46,858 nucleotides of DNA, from the NCBI GenBank assembly GCA_021842405.1, contig JAKBZR010000016.1:1-46858 (forward strand). Reading direction: 5' to 3'. Positions 19,013 to 35,205 of the stretch are shown here, piece after piece. Source of the stretch: a bacterium (GTDB taxonomy: Bacteria; Armatimonadota; Chthonomonadetes; Chthonomonadales; JAMCWF01). Position 1 is the first letter of the stretch, and each line of letters opens with the position of its first letter. Below the pieces are notes generated by a model that ran no database searches, was not told where the DNA came from, and was given only the letters and a program-made list of their open reading frames with translations. The position numbers and the translations under genes were made by a program.

Positions 19013-19287
19013 CGAAAGAGTTCAGTTCCCTGGGCAATTTAAGCAGGAGTCCCTCACTACCTGCCTGCGCCAGGCAGGTAACTCTTTTCCCAATCCTGGG
19101 AGAGGACTGGTGAATGAGATTGCTTCGCTTCGCTCGCAATGACCCCATCCCCCGTCAACGGGGGATGGGGTGCCGTTTCTTCCTGCTTTATGGCGTCAAG
19201 ATCATCCCGCCTCTCTCAGGCCGGTCGAGGTCTTCAGTAAAATTAACCGGCCTTCGCCACCATTCTCAGCAAACCTGAACTCTTACG
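19013..19287. mobile_element. family-A MITE-like element with 6-bp target duplication
   Basis: Left TIR CGAAAGAGTTCAG (19013), right TIR CTGAACTCTTACG (ends 19287), flanked by TCCAAA (19007-19012 and 19288-19293). Confidence 0.75.
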
Positions 19288-26735: not shown

Positions 26736-26882
26736 AGAAAGAGTTCCATTTTCGGGGAATGTTTTCTAGTAGCATGAGTCGCCACCCACCCCAATCCCTC
26801 CCCGGAAGCGGGGAGGGAGTTGATAATTGCTATAGGGGTAAGAGCCTGCTGCCTAAATCGCCCAGAGAACTGAACTCATTCG
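26736..26882. mobile_element. family-A MITE-like element
   Basis: Left AGAAAGAGTTCCATTTTCGGGG, right CCCAGAGAACTGAACTCATTCG; internal CCTCCCCGGAAGCGGGGAGG hairpin; imperfect flanking TCAAC/TCAAAC. Confidence 0.65.
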
Positions 26883-26917: not shown

Positions 26918-28621
26918 CTAGAAGAACGCTTTTAAGTAGGTCTTGACCGACTTTTCGACGTCAATATCTTGGCGGATCGGAGTTCCACTCGCCCTGGCAA
27001 GCAGCGCAAGGCCGCCTTTATGGTCGGCCCCCCGCCGCAACAAAATCGTATCTCCCCTGATCGCAATAACGCCGTAATTCGGACTGCGAAGCATTACAAC
27101 CAGCAGAGGCCAAAGGTTCTTCTGCAGCATTGGGAAGATACATCCTCTGGGCTGTAGCACAACGTATTCTATTGTTGAATTGTCAATCGCATTTGCAACC
27201 TGCCGGGGGTGATAAGGGGGATAATCCAGTCCTACTTGCTGTTTTAGGGCCGAAACGCTGTCTCCGCAAGCTACCTGGTAGAACGGGTTCGGAAAAAGAT
27301 AGATCAGCCGGCGGTGATCAATGTGCGGTATTAGGCCGGATTGCGCCGACACCGATACTCCCGGCGGTATCAACCGCAGAATGCTTTCGGCTTGGTCGGC
27401 CTGAAAAGAGGATACCGGTTGCGTCAGCGGCCAGGAAGTGATTAGAAATGGGCTCTCATTCAATCCCCATATCGTGCTCGCAATCAGATAGAACACCAGT
27501 AAACCGGTGGTGAACAAGCCGCCCCACCGGCGCAGTCGGTCAAATGCGATGATTGAGGCGATAAAGACAAATGGTGTGATGTATACCGTGTATTGGTAGT
27601 AGATCATTCGCATAAAGCTGCGGCCGCTTAAGAGGTTTGCTAAGAGGGATGGGCTGGCAAGCGCCAGCGCCTCCGGCGCCAGTAGCGGCAGGAAAAAGAG
27701 GGGCTGAAAAAGCTCGAATAGATAGCGCCGCGTCTCTTCCGTATTGAGGCCTGCAGCTACTCCAATGGGATGATGTAACAGTGTCCCGACTATCTGTATG
27801 GGTGTCTTGCCGTAGCGGGAATAGAGCCAGAAATAAGGTGATGGATGCCCTTTATGATATATCTGCAAAACTCCAAGCGCAATAACCAGCGCCGCCGCGC
27901 CCATACCCACCGTCAACCATCCCAGACGACGGTTCACTGCCAGCGCATAAAGCCCCAGCAGAATAATGGTGAGACCGGCCGTCTCTTTGGTGAGCGCGGT
28001 CAGCACCAGCAATAGAAAATAAAGCCGCCGGCGACCGCATATCAAATAGTAAAAGGCGCCGAGTAAGAACGGAGTGGCGAAAATCTCCGGGTGGAAATCA
28101 AAGGTATTGCTCCACTCCATTGGCGGGTAGCAAAGATAACACACCGCAAACAGCAGCCCGATCGGAGCCAGTCCGGTAGTGCGCCGGGCTAGTGCGTAGA
28201 CCGGCAATGCCCCAAGTGCCAGCGCCAAAGTTTGAGCGATCAGAAGTATTTTCGGGCTGTCCCAAACCCAAAAGAGCGGCGCCAGAAAATAAAGGATAGG
28301 ATCGAAGTGATCAGCAAGAAGCGGTAAGCCGCGCACGGTATCAAATGTATTGTGAAACCGGCTGATAAGCCATACCGCCTGATCGTAGATGCCAAGATCA
28401 TAGGCAGTCAATGCATAACGATGATACAAAAAGAAGGATTGCCGGATGAAGACAAACGAATAAACGCCAATTGCCAGCCATAGTAGGGTTAAGCAGATTC
28501 GGTCTAGTCGTACCCTTATTCGGCCGGCAAAAGAATGAACGAATTTGAGAGTAAATCTCTCTTTTATATCTCGATAAAACCGAATCATTGGATCAATGGG
28601 GGCGGTTTGATGCCGAGCCAT
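26918..28621 (-). CDS. DUF2079 membrane protein (GT-C-like)
   Basis: Polytopic; YALTAYDLGIYDQAVWLISRFHNTFDTVRGLPLLADHFDPILYFLAPLFW; start ATG 28621 with GGGAGG upstream. Confidence 0.88.
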   Translation of the reverse strand: MARHQTAPIDPMIRFYRDIKERFTLKFVHSFAGRIRVRLDRICLTLLWLAIGVYSFVFIRQSFFLYHRYALTAYDLGIYDQAVWLISRFHNTFDTVRGLPLLADHFDPILYFLAPLFWVWDSPKILLIAQTLALALGALPVYALARRTTGLAPIGLLFAVCYLCYPPMEWSNTFDFHPEIFATPFLLGAFYYLICGRRRLYFLLLVLTALTKETAGLTIILLGLYALAVNRRLGWLTVGMGAAALVIALGVLQIYHKGHPSPYFWLYSRYGKTPIQIVGTLLHHPIGVAAGLNTEETRRYLFELFQPLFFLPLLAPEALALASPSLLANLLSGRSFMRMIYYQYTVYITPFVFIASIIAFDRLRRWGGLFTTGLLVFYLIASTIWGLNESPFLITSWPLTQPVSSFQADQAESILRLIPPGVSVSAQSGLIPHIDHRRLIYLFPNPFYQVACGDSVSALKQQVGLDYPPYHPRQVANAIDNSTIEYVVLQPRGCIFPMLQKNLWPLLVVMLRSPNYGVIAIRGDTILLRRGADHKGGLALLARASGTPIRQDIDVEKSVKTYLKAFF

Positions 28622-29328
28622 TTCCGCGCCTCCCATATCCGTAGCCGCCAAGGTGTCCGGATCGCTTCCCAGATGACCTTACTGTCTAGTTTCGAGCACC
28701 CTAACTTTCGATCGGCAAAGACGATGGGTATTTCCACCAGCTCAAATCCCGACTGAAAGAGGCGATAAGCCGTTTCAACCTGAAACGCATACCCATTGGA
28801 AAACAGATTGTCAAGCCCGATCGCAATCAGTGCTTCACGGGGGTAGGAGCGATATCCGCCGGTGGCGTCATGAATGGGCATCCGGAGAATCAAGCCTACA
28901 TAACGGTTCGCCGCTTTGCTCAAAAACACCCTTCTCCAATTCCAATCACTGACGCCGCCGCCTTTCACATAACGGGAACCGACGGCGACCTTTCCTGCTG
29001 AAGCGGTCTCAATCAGCAAGGGCAGGTAGACTGGGTTATGAGAGAGATCGGCATCCATTTGGACGATCAAATCGTACCGGTTATCAAGCGCCCAACGAAA
29101 CCCGGCCACATAGGCCCGACCCAATCCCTGTTTATCCGCCCGGTGGATTACAAGAATCGAATCGCACTCCCTCGCCATCCGATCGGCCGCTTCTCCGGTA
29201 CCGTCCGGCGAGTTATCGTCAACGATCAAGATATCCACATCGCCCTCGGTAATCCGATGCACCTCACCGCATAGAGGCCCGATGTTCTCTCGTTCGTTGT
29301 AGGTTGGAACTACTATTACGGTACGCAT
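28585..29328 (-). CDS. GT2 polyprenol-monophosphomannose synthase-like (DPM1-type) glycosyltransferase
   Basis: MRTVIVVPTYNERENIGPLCGEV, ILIVDDNSPDGTGEAAD, RADKQGLGRAYVAGFRWAL, DLIVQMDADLSHNP, GSRYVKGGGVSDW. Confidence 0.93.
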   Translation of the reverse strand: MRTVIVVPTYNERENIGPLCGEVHRITEGDVDILIVDDNSPDGTGEAADRMARECDSILVIHRADKQGLGRAYVAGFRWALDNRYDLIVQMDADLSHNPVYLPLLIETASAGKVAVGSRYVKGGGVSDWNWRRVFLSKAANRYVGLILRMPIHDATGGYRSYPREALIAIGLDNLFSNGYAFQVETAYRLFQSGFELVEIPIVFADRKLGCSKLDSKVIWEAIRTPWRLRIWEARKWLGIKPPPLIQ

Positions 29329-29341
29329 TGGCTTGGAAGGC

Positions 29342-31006
29342 CTAAAAACCCAGCCGATCATTTCGCCGCATCCGGCGTAACAGCTCAAGCCCTTGCTGAT
29401 GGTTAGCTCCTCGACGGAGGACAATCAGACCGTTTTTAGCGTAAATGATTCCATAAAACCGACTGCGGAATAGCTGGCGCAGAACATACCGATACTGGGA
29501 CGAATCAACGAGCGGCCAAAGAAAGGATCCCGGATCTAGCACAATATAGTCCACCTTCGAGCGGGCAAAACGCAATGCCAGTTGATCGGAAGTTAAATGA
29601 GCATGAGCACCCTCTTGGTGAAGAAAGACATTGATACTGCTTCCCCAGGCTTTATGCAGGAAAGGGTTAGGGAATGCATATATGTATCGTCGTTGACTCA
29701 ATATGGGCACCAGCGCCGTTTGTGCTGATACGCATGCTGAGGCCGGAATTCGCCTAAGTTCCAGTGTCACGCTCCGACTCATCGCCACCCCATGTGTTTT
29801 CTTCCCAGAGAACCAAGGACCAATAGTCCAGCAACCATAAATGCTGCAAAGAAGCAAAATAGCGCCGAGCATCCACTCCAAGTATCTAATTTTGATCGGT
29901 GCAGAATGACACCACTCTAGGCATTGGCCAAACCCATGTATCGCCCCCACCATCATAAACGGCACTATTGAGGCGGTGTACTGATATTGAATAAAATGAG
30001 TGAGAGGGCTCCTGCTTAACAGATTAATACCCAAAGCAGGAATCGTGATAAGGATCAATTCCGGGGCAGCAAACGGTAGGAAGGCAATGGGATACAGAAG
30101 CTCACCTAAGTATAAAACGTTTTGTTTATTCAAAAGCAGATGGATGGTCGTTATCGGGTGAGTTAAAATAAAACCTAAAATAGAAGGTAGGTTTCGGCCG
30201 TATTGGCCATATAAAGCGACAATATAAGGAGAAGGAGCGCCACCATCGAAATACTGGATCAGATTGAGGGTGAAGTAGGTCCAAGCTAAACCCAGCAGCA
30301 CGACTCCTGATCCTCGCCGCCAACCGGCAACCGCACCAACATATAGTCCAAATGCAGCCACCACCAGTCCTACTGTCTCCTTAGAAGCCAATGCGCAAAC
30401 TAAGGTGATCCAGAACCACACCCAGCGTTGTCTATAAAGCGCTAAAATAGCAAACAATAGAAAAGGTGTGGCAAATACGTCCGGATGAAAATCCCAGCTA
30501 TTCATCCATTGTACAGGTGCATAGAGTAGGTAAGCGATCGTCAGCACTAAAGCCAACCCCTGATTTCGTAGCCGCCAAAATGCGATCCCGTAGGTCGCAA
30601 GCCCTCCGCTGCCAAGAGCAACCGATTGAATAAAGAGCAAAAACTCAGGTCGAGGATAAAGGCGGTACAGCGGAGCGACTAATATCAGAATTAAGGTGGC
30701 ATGGTCACCAAACAGCGGCAGCCCGCGTACAGTATCAAAAAACGGGTAATAGCCATGGCTTATTAACCAGACGCCCTGAAGGTAAATTCCCAGATCAAAC
30801 GCGGTGGCCTCATACTGGGCATAACGCATTATACTATAATAGCTTGCCCATGTCACGTAGACCGCAACGCAGGCGGCGGCCGCCATTATCCCCCAGTACC
30901 CCCTGGATAAGTTGGAAAGACGCCTAAGGGCTTGTACTCTACTTTCGGAAAGAGTAATTTGCAAAAGATGGAGAGGACTGTATTTACCGCTGATTATCTC
31001 AATCAT
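29342..31006 (-). CDS. DUF2079 membrane protein (GT-C-like), paralogue of 26918-28621
   Basis: YEATAFDLGIYLQGVWLISHGYYPFFDTVRGLPLFGDHATLILILVAPLYRLYPRPE; matching C-terminus. Confidence 0.88.
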   Translation of the reverse strand: MIEIISGKYSPLHLLQITLSESRVQALRRLSNLSRGYWGIMAAAACVAVYVTWASYYSIMRYAQYEATAFDLGIYLQGVWLISHGYYPFFDTVRGLPLFGDHATLILILVAPLYRLYPRPEFLLFIQSVALGSGGLATYGIAFWRLRNQGLALVLTIAYLLYAPVQWMNSWDFHPDVFATPFLLFAILALYRQRWVWFWITLVCALASKETVGLVVAAFGLYVGAVAGWRRGSGVVLLGLAWTYFTLNLIQYFDGGAPSPYIVALYGQYGRNLPSILGFILTHPITTIHLLLNKQNVLYLGELLYPIAFLPFAAPELILITIPALGINLLSRSPLTHFIQYQYTASIVPFMMVGAIHGFGQCLEWCHSAPIKIRYLEWMLGAILLLCSIYGCWTIGPWFSGKKTHGVAMSRSVTLELRRIPASACVSAQTALVPILSQRRYIYAFPNPFLHKAWGSSINVFLHQEGAHAHLTSDQLALRFARSKVDYIVLDPGSFLWPLVDSSQYRYVLRQLFRSRFYGIIYAKNGLIVLRRGANHQQGLELLRRMRRNDRLGF

Positions 31007-31008
31007 TT

Positions 31009-32025
31009 TTACAGTTTAGATTGGTCAAGATATAGCCCGTAAACCGGAATAACCAAACGTCGTTCTCCCGGATTTACAAGCACATCTATGTTCGCATGCA
31101 ACGACCCTTCTTTTAGGCCCTCTGCCGGGAGCACCGTGATTACCGACTTGATGGTATTTGGGTAGTTGCTTAAAGAGAACCTGAGTATTCCAGGAGGTGA
31201 CGATACTATCCGGATAACGGTAAAAGGCTTAGCATATGGTGAGGAAATTGTAAATACACAGTGCGCCGTCCTTGGATCACGGAACACCCCCAGCGAGATG
31301 GGATATGGAGATACTACCAAGCGAGGCAATACGTATCCTTTTACTACAATCGTTGCTTTTGGAAGTCTAATATCGTTAGTGAGAAGTGTTAAGTATTCTT
31401 TGAATCTACCAGGTGGTAAATGAGGGGCCGTTTGAAGCGTTATATGAGCCATATTAGAATTTTCCGTAGCATCCACACTGATGAGCTGCTTTCCATGAGT
31501 AGTCCGCACATTCTTTATTTCTAAGTGTTTTTGTGTCAAAGATGTGATATTGAATGACGCTCGCTTTATTTGTCCTATCAACAGTTCCCCCATGTCCACG
31601 GTAGGTGGAACCGGATCAACCACTAATCCCGTCGCCCTGAGTAAAACTGGCTGTTGATGACCGGCAATAAAGACAGACGTTGACACCGAAAACGGTCCCT
31701 TTTTGCCAGTAGTATTAATTTCCATGTTGCCTTGCAACGCACTATGTGGCGGAATTGTTTGTCTTTCCAAGTGAAATACGGTACAACCACAACTAGGAAC
31801 TACTTGTGTGATGTAGAAACTATGGTCGCTTGAGTTGTATAACCGAAAAGTATGGATAGGTATCTCGCCGCCGTAAACAGTCCCAACCCGCCATATCCTA
31901 GGAGTTACATCAATCGGCGTAGAGGAATGTGGCAAAAGCGAGTGGATAATAAGGTAGCTTGCTAAACCGACTGGAAATGTAACCAGTAAAATAATTGAGA
32001 ATATGAAGTATTGGCGACGATGCAT
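31009..32025 (-). CDS. DUF1573-type membrane-anchored protein
   Basis: N-terminal TM; TFRLYNSSDHSFYITQVVPSCGCTVFHLERQTIPPHS.L.GNMEINTTGKKGPFSVSTSVF, typical DUF1573 SCGC motif. Confidence 0.82.
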   Translation of the reverse strand: MHRRQYFIFSIILLVTFPVGLASYLIIHSLLPHSSTPIDVTPRIWRVGTVYGGEIPIHTFRLYNSSDHSFYITQVVPSCGCTVFHLERQTIPPHSALQGNMEINTTGKKGPFSVSTSVFIAGHQQPVLLRATGLVVDPVPPTVDMGELLIGQIKRASFNITSLTQKHLEIKNVRTTHGKQLISVDATENSNMAHITLQTAPHLPPGRFKEYLTLLTNDIRLPKATIVVKGYVLPRLVVSPYPISLGVFRDPRTAHCVFTISSPYAKPFTVIRIVSSPPGILRFSLSNYPNTIKSVITVLPAEGLKEGSLHANIDVLVNPGERRLVIPVYGLYLDQSKL

Positions 32026-32047
32026 CTTAGATACTCTCCCATTTACC

Positions 32048-32884
32048 TCAAAACTCCATGTAGCCATGATGCGATTTATCCCCAGTATATGCCATTCCTA
32101 CATGATCAAGTATCCACTCTTTTAACGTAGGGTTCCAATAAAGCCACAGGAAATCAGGCCAAGCTGGGTCCGGTGCCTGATGCTTTATTATGAAATAAAC
32201 CAAGGCATAGGTGTAAGGTGGGGAATCGATTGGAAAAGTGAAGTCACTTCTTGACCACCCCCAACCCATCTGTAAAGGAGCCATCTTTTTCATCTGCTCA
32301 ACTTGCTCTTGACCCGTTATGGGGGCCACTTGTTGAAATACTTCTATTCGAGCATCGGAAAGATCAATCCCATCCCAGTAGCCTCCGTGAAAATAATCAG
32401 ACGTCCACAATGCCCGAACCATTTCCCAGCCGGTGGAAGGCGGCCACTGGCGCCAGCTTGTGAAAATTTGTCTGTAGCGAAGATGTAATTCGCTTAGAGG
32501 CACGTTAAAGATCCGTAAACTTTTAAGTACTTGCTCACCATCGGCAGAAATAAGGCCATGCCTCTTTTGTACAAAACTTTGAAACTTATTCCAATCCGAC
32601 GTTTTATATATAGTCAAGCACTCAGCAAGCGTCTGGACAAGCTTCTTGTATTGATCATCGGTTAATACTGTGGTAAAATTCACTTTGATCTGCTGGGTCA
32701 ATGCAAGATTTACGACATCACTATTGCCGATTGGAGTAAATTGCCGATCTCCCCATATTTTTAAAGGTCTTTTCCACGGTTCCAGGGGAGGTGTTGGTTT
32801 GTATATGGTGTAAAGAACCACTGCCAGCACCGTCAGCCCAACCGCGATTCCCGCTCGGATAAGTATGAGCCGCCTAGGTCGCAT
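32048..32884 (-). CDS. hypothetical membrane-anchored extracytoplasmic protein
   Basis: N-terminal TM (RRLILIRAGIAVGLTVLAVVLYTIY); soluble remainder without recognised family; coupled to DUF1573 gene. Confidence 0.7.
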   Translation of the reverse strand: MRPRRLILIRAGIAVGLTVLAVVLYTIYKPTPPLEPWKRPLKIWGDRQFTPIGNSDVVNLALTQQIKVNFTTVLTDDQYKKLVQTLAECLTIYKTSDWNKFQSFVQKRHGLISADGEQVLKSLRIFNVPLSELHLRYRQIFTSWRQWPPSTGWEMVRALWTSDYFHGGYWDGIDLSDARIEVFQQVAPITGQEQVEQMKKMAPLQMGWGWSRSDFTFPIDSPPYTYALVYFIIKHQAPDPAWPDFLWLYWNPTLKEWILDHVGMAYTGDKSHHGYMEF

Positions 32885-32906
32885 TTCCCACTCCTCCAAA
32901 AATGTA

Positions 32907-32930
32907 GGGGGAGGAAAGCTATTCCTCCCC
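32907..32930 (-). terminator. hairpin downstream of Cys-rich peptide gene (terminator/attenuator)
   Basis: Minus strand GGGGAGGAA-TAGCT-TTCCTCCCC followed by CTACATTTTT, before the next gene start (32884). Confidence 0.6.
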
Positions 32931-32938
32931 TCTTAACG

Positions 32939-33157
32939 TTATACACATTTGCATGCGAAGCCACCGCTAGAAGTGCAGTAACACTGCGCACAGGCTGTCG
33001 GTGTGCAGTTGATACTGCAGCTCCCGTTCTTACACGAAACACTGCAACTTGTGGGAAGCCAACAATAAGCACCGGCCATTGCTCCTCCGGCAACCCATAA
33101 GACCACTGCACAAACAACCGCATTTCCCCACCTTCGGGTCTTTTGCATAGCTACCAT
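32939..33157 (-). CDS. secreted cysteine-rich mini-protein (10 Cys after signal peptide)
   Basis: MVAMQKTRRWGNAVVCAVVLWVAGGAMAGAYCWLPTSCSVSCKNGSCSINCTPTACAQCYCTSSGGFACKCV; upstream AAGGAGGTGATGATAA-ATG is a near-perfect Shine-Dalgarno. Confidence 0.8.
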   Translation of the reverse strand: MVAMQKTRRWGNAVVCAVVLWVAGGAMAGAYCWLPTSCSVSCKNGSCSINCTPTACAQCYCTSSGGFACKCV

Positions 33158-33264
33158 TTATCATCACCTCCTTCCTCATTAACTTAATAATAGAGACAAC
33201 TCCCATCGTCCTCTTCTAGGATTATAAACAAGTTCGTTCCGCTATTAGCAGTAACTCCAAAAAC

Positions 33265-33438
33265 TTATTTCAACCATCTGCTGAAAGGTGTGCTGTCACT
33301 ACTACACCCACATGGCTTCGGTTGGATCGTCCGCCGGTTAGCCAGCGCTCGCTGAATTAATAGTGTACTCAAACCCGCCAATAAAACGAGACAGATAATG
33401 TATATCATAACTTTGACCTGTTTGATGTAGGAGGACAT
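33265..33438 (-). CDS. 57-aa single-TM peptide with C-terminal PCGCSSD motif (absent from supplied ORF track)
   Basis: My translation: MSSYIKQVKVMIYIICLVLLAGLSTLLIQRALANRRTIQPKPCGCSSDSTPFSRWLK*; AAAGGG about 10 nt upstream. Confidence 0.55.
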   Translation of the reverse strand: MSSYIKQVKVMIYIICLVLLAGLSTLLIQRALANRRTIQPKPCGCSSDSTPFSRWLK

Positions 33439-33620
33439 TGATCTTGCCCTTTCCGTCTCTCCCCGAGTTCACCTTTCCGGTCTTTTCGCCGGCAACCGGT
33501 ATGGCTTGGTACTCCGGCAACTCATCTCATCCTACTGCGTATCAGAGAGATATACGGTTATTAAATCGTATCTCCTCTTTACTGCTCCTACTCTATATAA
33601 CACCGCAACTCGCCAAAAAC

Positions 33621-34028
33621 CTACGGGTAAACTGAAAATTGTTTGAGATCTTTGCAATCATTCGGAGTTTTTATCCGGTTGTGAATGGGATGATTGAAAT
33701 GTGCGGGGGGGGGGGCGATGAGGCTGCGTAAGTCGGCTTCGGTGAACCCGCGCTCTTTCAAGCGGGCGCGTAAACGCCGCTTGGCCCGTCGTAGAGCTTG
33801 ATCCACCGCCCCTTCGCTGGTATCGAGGGCAGCCGCCATATCTTTAATTGACCGGCCGTCTAAGTAATGCCGGAGGAAAACCGTTCGCTCAAGCGAGGTT
33901 AAATCATTAAGAGCCAAACCGAGCATATCCCAAAACTCTCCCCGTAGAAGTTCCTCCTCCGGGGAGAAGCCATCGTCAGTGGAGTCCCAAGCGGGGCTTT
34001 CTCCGTTCGGCCCGACGGCTTCGGCCAC
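33621..34028 (-). CDS. ECF-type sigma factor, region 4 part (GTG start or frameshift product)
   Basis: LTSLERTVFLRHYLDGRSIKDMAAALDTSEGAVDQALRRAKRRLRARLKERG, a sigma-70 region 4 HTH. Confidence 0.7.
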   Translation of the reverse strand: MAEAVGPNGESPAWDSTDDGFSPEEELLRGEFWDMLGLALNDLTSLERTVFLRHYLDGRSIKDMAAALDTSEGAVDQALRRAKRRLRARLKERGFTEADLRSLIAPPPAHFNHPIHNRIKTPNDCKDLKQFSVYP

Positions 34029-34291
34029 ACGACCTCATGTCTCCGCCGGCAGTTGAGCGATCGAAGGTAATTCAGGGTGTGGTTTTCGAGGCACTTGAAT
34101 AGGCAGGCGGCGCAGTCGCTTCCCACCCAGCATTGCCGGAGGACACGCCCTCCTCGCAATATCACCGACGTTACAAAGCCGATGGCGCAATCTTCCGCGT
34201 CATCGCGATTAAGCCCGCTCTTTATCGCATGAATCCGCGCCCGCTCGAATAAACGGTCAATCGGCGGGCAGTGAGCATTGCGGCTATCCAT
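33899..34291 (-). CDS. ECF-type sigma factor, region 2-like part (different frame)
   Basis: RLFERARIHAIKSGLNRDDAEDCAIGFVTSVI....CLFKCLENHTLNYLRSLNCRRRHE, sigma region 2-like; overlaps the region 4 ORF in another frame. Confidence 0.6.
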   Translation of the reverse strand: MDSRNAHCPPIDRLFERARIHAIKSGLNRDDAEDCAIGFVTSVILRGGRVLRQCWVGSDCAACLFKCLENHTLNYLRSLNCRRRHEVVWPKPSGRTEKAPLGTPLTMASPRRRNFYGESFGICSVWLLMI

Positions 34292-34468
34292 TGCTGCCCA
34301 AACCTTCCGAAGTTGAGGCTACAAGACACAACCAGCATCAATAATAACCATATCACATTGACTAGATTCTGTCAAGAGATTTTTTGCCATTGGCTCAGAG
34401 TGGGTCATGCTGAATGCGACTCGAGATGCGAATCAATCGGGCAGCAATGATAGGGTTAATGTTACATC

Positions 34469-35060: not shown

Positions 35061-35158
35061 GACAGGTGTTGCAGACAGGTCTCATAGAGGCGGCGATGAT
35101 GTTGACACCATAAGGCAGCCAAGAAACGGCATCTCTTCCCCCTCGAAGGGTCAGGGGG

Positions 35159-35205
35159 GCGACAAATGCTGCTAGAAAACATTCCCCGAAAATTGAACTC
35201 TTTCG
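35159..35205. repeat. family-A repeat end, inverted copy of 26736-26783
   Basis: GCGACAAATGCTGCTAGAAAACATTCCCCGAAAATTGAACTCTTTCG vs AGAAAGAGTTCCATTTTCGGGGAATGTTTTCTAGTAGCATGAGTCGCC on the other strand. Confidence 0.65.

Follow-up and report, generated by a model that had tools for sequence, protein, structure and literature searches.

A probable dedicated cassette for a secreted cysteine-rich peptide in Armatimonadota, with candidate glycosylation and thiol-chemistry genes

A 46,858-nucleotide stretch of a metagenome-assembled genome (MAG) of the phylum Armatimonadota (GenBank assembly GCA_021842405.1, contig JAKBZR010000016.1; the whole stretch is referred to as the window, its genome as G000, relatives by codes such as G001-G097, and gene neighbourhoods by L-numbers) carries on its minus strand, in order, genes for an extracytoplasmic function (ECF) sigma factor, a mini-protein with 10 Cys, a novel membrane-anchored protein (unk), a DUF1573 protein, a DUF2079 protein, a family 2 glycosyltransferase (GT2) and a second DUF2079 protein. 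We consider it highly probable that these genes constitute a dedicated, regulated cassette for a secreted Cys-rich peptide. With less confidence, though we still lean towards it, we propose that the cassette carries out an ECF-sigma-driven maturation of a secreted disulfide-rich peptide, comprising thiol oxidation and probable extracytoplasmic glycosylation. The genes are as follows.

33621..34291, minus strand: ECF sigma factor, one frameshifted gene (N-terminal part 33899-34291, C-terminal part 33621-34028; Sigma70_r4_2, 6e-14, plus alignments)
32939..33157, minus strand: Sec-exported mini-protein of 72 aa, the putative product precursor (signal peptide, then ~43 aa mature part with 10 Cys)
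32048..32884, minus strand: unk, novel membrane-anchored protein, 278 aa from the likely ATG at 32884 (283-aa open reading frame, ORF); no Pfam or NCBIfam family
31009..32025, minus strand: DUF1573 protein with an SCGCT motif and an N-terminal transmembrane anchor (Pfam, 3.1e-17; ORF to 32067, likely ATG at 32025)
29342..31006, minus strand: DUF2079 membrane protein 1, candidate GT-C-type glycosyltransferase (Pfam, 8e-60)
28585..29328, minus strand: GT2, similar to dolichol/polyprenyl-phosphate hexose synthases (Pfam Glycos_transf_2, 2e-28; ORF to 29424)
26918..28621, minus strand: DUF2079 membrane protein 2 (Pfam, 2e-60; ORF to 28651; 83% identical to the G001 protein)

An earlier note made from the letters of this DNA (the original prediction) had described the locus as co-directional and tightly spaced. 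All of its ORF positions were confirmed on the minus strand, the junctions 31009/31006, 32048/32025 and 28585/28621 were verified in the sequence, and the genes that run from the mini-protein through to DUF2079 protein 2 nearly touch each other, the largest gap being ~55 nt. Its family calls for the sigma factor, DUF1573, both DUF2079 proteins and the GT2 agree with Pfam.

Recurrence of the cassette and its peptide in the phylum

A DUF1573 search of the relatives led to loci in G090, G097 and G005 with the order Cys-rich mini-protein, unk, DUF1573 and DUF2079, the G097 locus additionally carrying a second DUF2079 and a GT2. A profile of unk added G001 as the fifth member, with the same order and a truncated DUF1573, and a scan of GTDB species returned those same four relatives. 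The order is thus kept, with or without the GT2 and sigma genes, in four other genomes of the phylum (five including the window); the original prediction had named its loss in relatives beforehand as a possible refutation. The relatives are placed in the genus, order or phylum of the window, G001 being of the same genus and the other listed genomes of the order belonging to other families, and the homologous loci in database records come from Armatimonadetes MAGs, one of them from Chthonomonadales. The cassette is more than a chance arrangement, given that distant families of the phylum share its gene order. The G001 locus adds a PIG-V-type mannosyltransferase.

The mini-protein gene is well supported by a consensus Shine-Dalgarno (SD) sequence (AAGGAGGTGA / AAGGAGGTGATGATAAATG), and both it and unk carry good SD sites. 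Its product is the positional and Cys-pattern counterpart of 12-Cys peptides in G001, G005, G090 and G097, and the peptide is conserved among the relatives in position and Cys-rich character; lack of conservation of the peptide ORF was another refutation that the original prediction had named. The relatives' peptides have a common 12-Cys pattern, CCICCG...CCPPG, to which the window peptide with its 10 Cys is alike just in place and spacing. Used as a single query, the window peptide gave chance-level matches in sequence searches and no match in the PDB, and neither it nor unk has a significant match in Pfam or NCBIfam. A strict detector of exported Cys-rich peptides (45-180 aa, signal-like N-terminus, at least 6 Cys, outside larger ORFs) found 13 peptides in 388 kb around DUF2079 and DUF1573 genes, whereas 295 kb further away in those loci and 395 kb of control DNA taken from these genomes contained none; ORFs of this type are absent, in other words, from 690 kb of other DNA.

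The unk protein consists of an N-terminal transmembrane helix followed by a mixed alpha/beta domain, and its family was found by profile search in 5 of the 291 genomes of the phylum. As a single query in 101 relatives it matched itself alone, and a profile built from the DUF1573-anchored loci was needed to reach its counterparts, with which it is collinear at 16-19% identity (hhalign E-value 3.7e-4, probability 36); the relatives' proteins share 35-65% identity with the G090 copy. A structure search with an AlphaFold2 (AF2) model of the G001 homologue (pLDDT 71) found no significant fold in the PDB. The window and G001 share 83% identity in the last DUF2079 and 18% in unk, and their peptides are unalike. 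Judged by these sequences, the client end of the cassette appears to evolve much faster than the transferase, and such fast divergence of peptide and unk would fit antagonism or self-recognition. The end use of the peptide may be antagonism, a signal or a surface structure.

Predicted glycosyltransferases and thiol chemistry

The window GT2 is closest to the dolichol-phosphate-mannose (DPM) synthase of Pyrococcus (PDB identifier 5mlz, 6.6e-35), with the motifs DDNSPDGT and DADLSHNP aligned, and it possesses the GT2 domain of DPM synthases with the metal-binding DAD motif. The DUF2079 sequence found no match in the PDB. Foldseek searches of the PDB with an AF2 model of DUF2079 protein 2, a model of moderate confidence (pLDDT 65, TM-score ~0.45), yielded 12 matches at E-values of at most 0.001, all of them STT3-type oligosaccharyltransferases, followed by ArnT, DPY19, AftA and PglB (best E-values 1e-4 for STT3, 1e-3 for ArnT and 1.5e-3 for DPY19). 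We predict, with moderate confidence, that DUF2079 is a transferase of the GT-C fold. The residues D85, H115 and K222-E223 are invariant in 7 DUF2079 sequences, an invariance that does not by itself assign a catalytic role to them. A full-text literature search found no paper on DUF2079. Glycosylation of the peptide by the GT2 and DUF2079 is the best single reading of these genes, and we give it an even chance.

DUF2079 is rare in the phylum, with 43 matches in 20 of 291 genomes, and its tree falls into two groups. In the clade to which we refer as peptide-type, 13 of 22 loci have an exported Cys-rich peptide and 2 have graspetide genes, as compared with none of the 10 loci of the other clade; these locus counts were read from neighbourhood maps and are partly looser than those of the strict detector. 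The second clade is peptide-free and stands partly beside other glycosyltransferases. The original prediction had also held that a glycosyltransferase/DUF2079 block found elsewhere without the peptide would speak against it. Some DUF2079 genes are indeed found apart from this peptide family, but mostly beside other exported Cys-rich peptides or graspetide genes.

Graspetide-like loci are present at G000:C132 (L025:7244-11433) and G001:C20 (L112:5186-9321). They comprise an HTH protein, a short precursor (common core TPFVMLWAK.VPA..FYG), a protein of 190-201 aa, an ATP-grasp ligase of the MvdD type (TIGR04187, 1e-66 and 2e-70, both short of the curated cut-off) and DUF2079, which suggests that DUF2079 also serves another class of peptides.

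Asn-X-Ser/Thr sequons number 17 in 14 exported Cys-rich peptides against 8.5 expected from shuffling (p 0.002), with no conserved position, in a test that was devised after the window peptide had been seen and is an exploratory lead only; the other proteins of the genome show a background sequon ratio of 1.0.

The DUF1573 protein is the sole member of its family in the window genome. In some bacteria DUF1573 occurs with selenocysteine in a UGC motif (PMC9312934; PMC13188914), and these selenocysteine forms are consistent with a redox activity of the SCGC motif. Elsewhere in the full-text literature DUF1573 receives passing mentions at most. Genes for thiol chemistry or leader processing accompany the loci of relatives, namely C39 peptidase domains, MauE, DsbA-like and redoxin-like proteins, the MauE matches being 2e-6 and 6.5e-7 in addition to that of a single ORF in G068 (L115:4443-5732) which fuses a DPM-type GT2 with MauE (PF00535, 5e-23; PF07291, 1.2e-16). 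This fusion stands before a Cys peptide with a GG leader, a C39 protein and DUF2079. Disulfide maturation of the peptide is likely. The DUF1573 gene is split in G005 (L022:6141-7215) and reduced to its N-terminus in G001 (L031:9089-9337), and may on account of these copies be dispensable or replaced.

Regulation and a proposed maturation route

Four further features were recorded in the region.

34347..34375, minus strand: sigma70-type promoter before the sigma gene, TTGACA-17-TATGGT with extended TG (consensus scan, 10/12)
33583..33618, minus strand: candidate target promoter of the ECF sigma factor, TTTTGGCGAGTTG-N14-GTAGGAGCA, immediately after the sigma gene, footprint shared with G001
33265..33438, minus strand: transmembrane CGC peptide of 57 aa, a doubtful gene (ORF present; weak SD)
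32908..32930, minus strand: GC-rich hairpin, candidate attenuator, with a 9-bp perfect stem right after the precursor gene

The split sigma factor of the original prediction is a single ECF sigma gene, not two genes, and its reading frame is interrupted by a frameshift in the linker between regions 2 and 4. Its two frames align with consecutive parts of the intact G001 sigma (29% identity over 77 aa, then 44% over 102 aa) and with a paralogue in the same genome, G000:C91 (59% over 37 aa and 71% over 112 aa); membership in the ECF group is given by Pfam for region 4 and solely by alignment to the G001 sigma for region 2. From the sequence, the frameshift may be a real mutation or a MAG assembly error. 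ECF sigma genes adjoin the loci in the window, G001, G005 (three of them), G015 and G053.

The element TTTTGGCGAGTTG-N14-GTAGGAGCA has 13 and 9 identical bases at the same spacing in the window and G001, where the flanking DNA hardly aligns, and it is absent in G005. With up to 3 mismatches the pattern has two further copies in the G000 genome. One (3 mismatches) is located at G000:C91, right after the paralogous sigma gene; the other, G000:C132:48669, was set aside, as it lies inside an ORF and equals the control rate of one match. Sharing of the motif between the window and C91 may partly result from duplication of the sigma gene, and the comparison with G001 is the cleaner footprint. GGAAC-type ECF promoters were looked for upstream of the peptides and no pattern emerged. 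The number of sigma70-type sites in the region is at chance level, and for the site at 34347..34375 the position alone is suggestive.

By way of the promoter footprint, another locus with a sigma gene and a Cys peptide was located in the window's genome, G000:C91 (L177:6104-11010), in which the sigma gene is followed by genes for a redoxin-like protein, a DUF1559-type pseudopilin, a Cys-rich exported protein, a small membrane protein and GT4-type glycosyltransferases. The same gene order, but ending in DUF2079, is seen in G053 (L129), with identities of 50% for the pseudopilin, 27% for the redoxin and 30% for the small membrane protein.

A perfect stem of 8-12 bp follows the precursor gene in 4 of 5 homologous loci, as compared with 2 of 49 control gaps, and such a hairpin would fit, as expected, a balance between precursor and enzymes. 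The transmembrane CGC peptide, which the original prediction regarded as a second product, has no credible homologue in 101 genomes, and we do not retain it as such.

We infer the following course of events. The sigma factor would turn on the operon via the conserved promoter that immediately follows the sigma gene, and the hairpin would hold precursor mRNA above enzyme mRNA. The mini-protein would be exported by Sec and its signal peptide then cleaved off, after which the 10 Cys (12 in relatives) would be paired into disulfides by an envelope thiol system that includes DUF1573 and, in relatives, extra MauE, DsbA-like or redoxin-like partners together with C39 peptidases. The DPM-synthase-like GT2 would charge polyprenyl phosphate with a hexose on the inner side of the membrane, and on the outer side this sugar would be passed on by the DUF2079 GT-C proteins, most likely to the peptide. 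The membrane-anchored unk may assist as a chaperone, in docking or in self-protection.

Alternative explanations and comparison with known systems

Several observations weigh against this proposal. Profile comparison of the window mini-protein with its counterparts does not give significant homology, and there is no direct evidence of a sugar on the peptide. The window locus itself is without a MauE, DsbA or C39 gene, and its sigma gene carries a frameshift in this assembly. In about six DUF2079 loci of the peptide-type clade no peptide is seen, and the Fisher test on the two clades (p 0.0016) is optimistic since the loci are phylogenetically related. The moderate confidence of the DUF2079 model and the post hoc origin of the sequon test count on the same side.

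GT-C and GT2 enzymes often act on lipids or glycans, and the GT2 and DUF2079 proteins could accordingly decorate a surface lipid or glycan under an envelope-stress sigma factor, the Cys-rich peptide being a co-regulated envelope protein and not the acceptor. The peptide-free second DUF2079 clade with its neighbouring glycosyltransferases agrees with such an envelope-modification operon, as does a sub-threshold match of one relative protein to MucB/RseB, a fold used in envelope-stress sensing. However, DUF2079 pairs with graspetide biosynthesis in two genomes, the peptide families change between loci while the transferase stays constant, as expected if the peptides are its clients, and the GT2-MauE fusion links sugar loading to thiol oxidation. 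We regard this explanation as unlikely.

Slightly less likely still is a bacteriocin-like toxin with unk as its cognate immunity protein, matured by the glycosyl and thiol genes, an explanation that would extend our proposal and does not exclude it. The precursor adjoins unk in all 5 loci and both diverge together (the low unk identity and unalike peptides of the window and G001 against their similar DUF2079), and the hairpin after the precursor would suit a toxin, but the window locus is without a dedicated exporter, unk matches no known fold and the activity of the peptide is purely predicted.

MauE in several loci suggests that the peptide could be a subunit like MauA of methylamine dehydrogenase, disulfide-rich and with a redox or metal-binding function, matured by DUF1573/MauE with the glycosylation genes incidental; we find this improbable given that the loci mapped have no dehydrogenase or electron-transfer partner gene and that the peptides vary more than a catalytic subunit should. 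Hardly credible is a decaying cassette, inactive in this strain, since in spite of the sigma frameshift, an orphan ORF upstream and the truncated DUF1573 in G001, all other genes are open, precursor and unk have good SD sites, the frameshift may be an assembly error and a close sigma paralogue with the same type of promoter exists.

The maturation route that we propose resembles several known systems in part. Protein O- and C-mannosylation (DPM1 with PMT or DPY19) and ArnT share the two-step logic of a DPM-like GT2 and an outward-facing GT-C enzyme, whereas DUF2079 has no sequence match to solved structures and would serve a single small, dedicated peptide that has a sigma factor of its own. 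Glycocins (sublancin, glycocin F) are likewise small secreted disulfide-bonded peptides with a dedicated glycosyltransferase in the locus. They are glycosylated in the cytosol by a soluble GT2 that uses nucleotide sugars, and exported by an ABC/C39 transporter. The window cassette, in contrast, has apparent Sec export, polytopic GT-C transferases and a polyprenyl-phosphate sugar synthase, its GT2 being DPM-like, and no ABC/C39 exporter was found in it. Graspetides of the MvdD type come close in G000 and G001, where a DUF2079 gene follows the ATP-grasp ligase and graspetide-like precursor, whereas the window locus lacks an ATP-grasp enzyme and encodes a Cys-rich peptide that is exported by Sec. 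Methylamine dehydrogenase maturation (MauE/MauD/MauA) also has MauE beside a small secreted many-Cys protein, but dehydrogenase genes are missing here and MauE is found in relatives only, once fused to the sugar synthase. Finally, the original prediction had drawn an analogy to the NVEALA loci of Bacteroidetes on the basis of DUF1573 encoded near short exported Cys-containing peptides, an arrangement that the window locus shows. We could not uphold this analogy, as no peptide has a match in Pfam or NCBIfam (the presence of an NVEALA model in these libraries is unchecked) and the DUF2079 and DPM-type genes are foreign to the NVEALA picture. Membership of the window locus in the NVEALA, glycocin or graspetide families is not supported.

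Of the decoration of a secreted peptide that had been hypothesized at the outset, the dedicated locus stands, with neighbours that point to thiol chemistry and glycosylation, and no evidence was found for lipidation. Somewhat short of an even chance, in our estimate, is the broader proposal that DUF2079 proteins, at least those of this clade, are dedicated extracytoplasmic peptide glycosyltransferases, and that the Armatimonadota loci represent a new class of ribosomal natural products, Sec-exported and disulfide-rich, with sugars from polyprenyl phosphate, in many cases with an ECF sigma factor of their own and possibly with Asn-X-Ser/Thr sites. Literature searches on GT-C enzymes or Armatimonadetes in the context of ribosomally synthesized and post-translationally modified peptides, on MauE and on graspetide glycosyltransferases retrieved nothing relevant, and no earlier account of such a cassette was found. 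The locus yields a first role hypothesis for DUF2079 and a testable role for DUF1573, as enzymes and thiol partners, respectively, of secreted mini-proteins. If true, extracytoplasmic GT-C glycosylation would join the toolbox of ribosomal peptide maturation, and an almost uncultured phylum would hold an unexamined family of secreted peptides that can be mined by the rule ECF sigma, Cys-rich exported ORF and DUF2079.

Outside the cassette, scans with Rfam and for tRNAs gave no match in the window. The orphan ORF upstream of the sigma gene (123 aa, window:34469-34840) has no Pfam match and is perhaps a remnant of a larger protein. Dispersed repeats of ~51 bp (35154-35204 and 26737-26787, inverted) and ~70-85 bp (35074-35142 and 19160-19226) are present, and such REP-like repeats, which flank both ends of the cassette, number at least 40 scored copies genome-wide, among 179 candidates. 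A mobile cassette, as read from the inverted 51-bp end repeats, was dropped on account of this copy number.

In the neighbourhoods L017, L021, L133, L134 and L139, a Cys-rich exported precursor with a GG leader is accompanied by a LolA-like protein and C39/DUF1573 proteins, with no DUF2079 nearby. A C39-DUF1573 fusion was confirmed in L017, and L140 is similar without the GG. These GG-leader loci form a sister type of locus for secreted Cys peptides, one that does without DUF2079.

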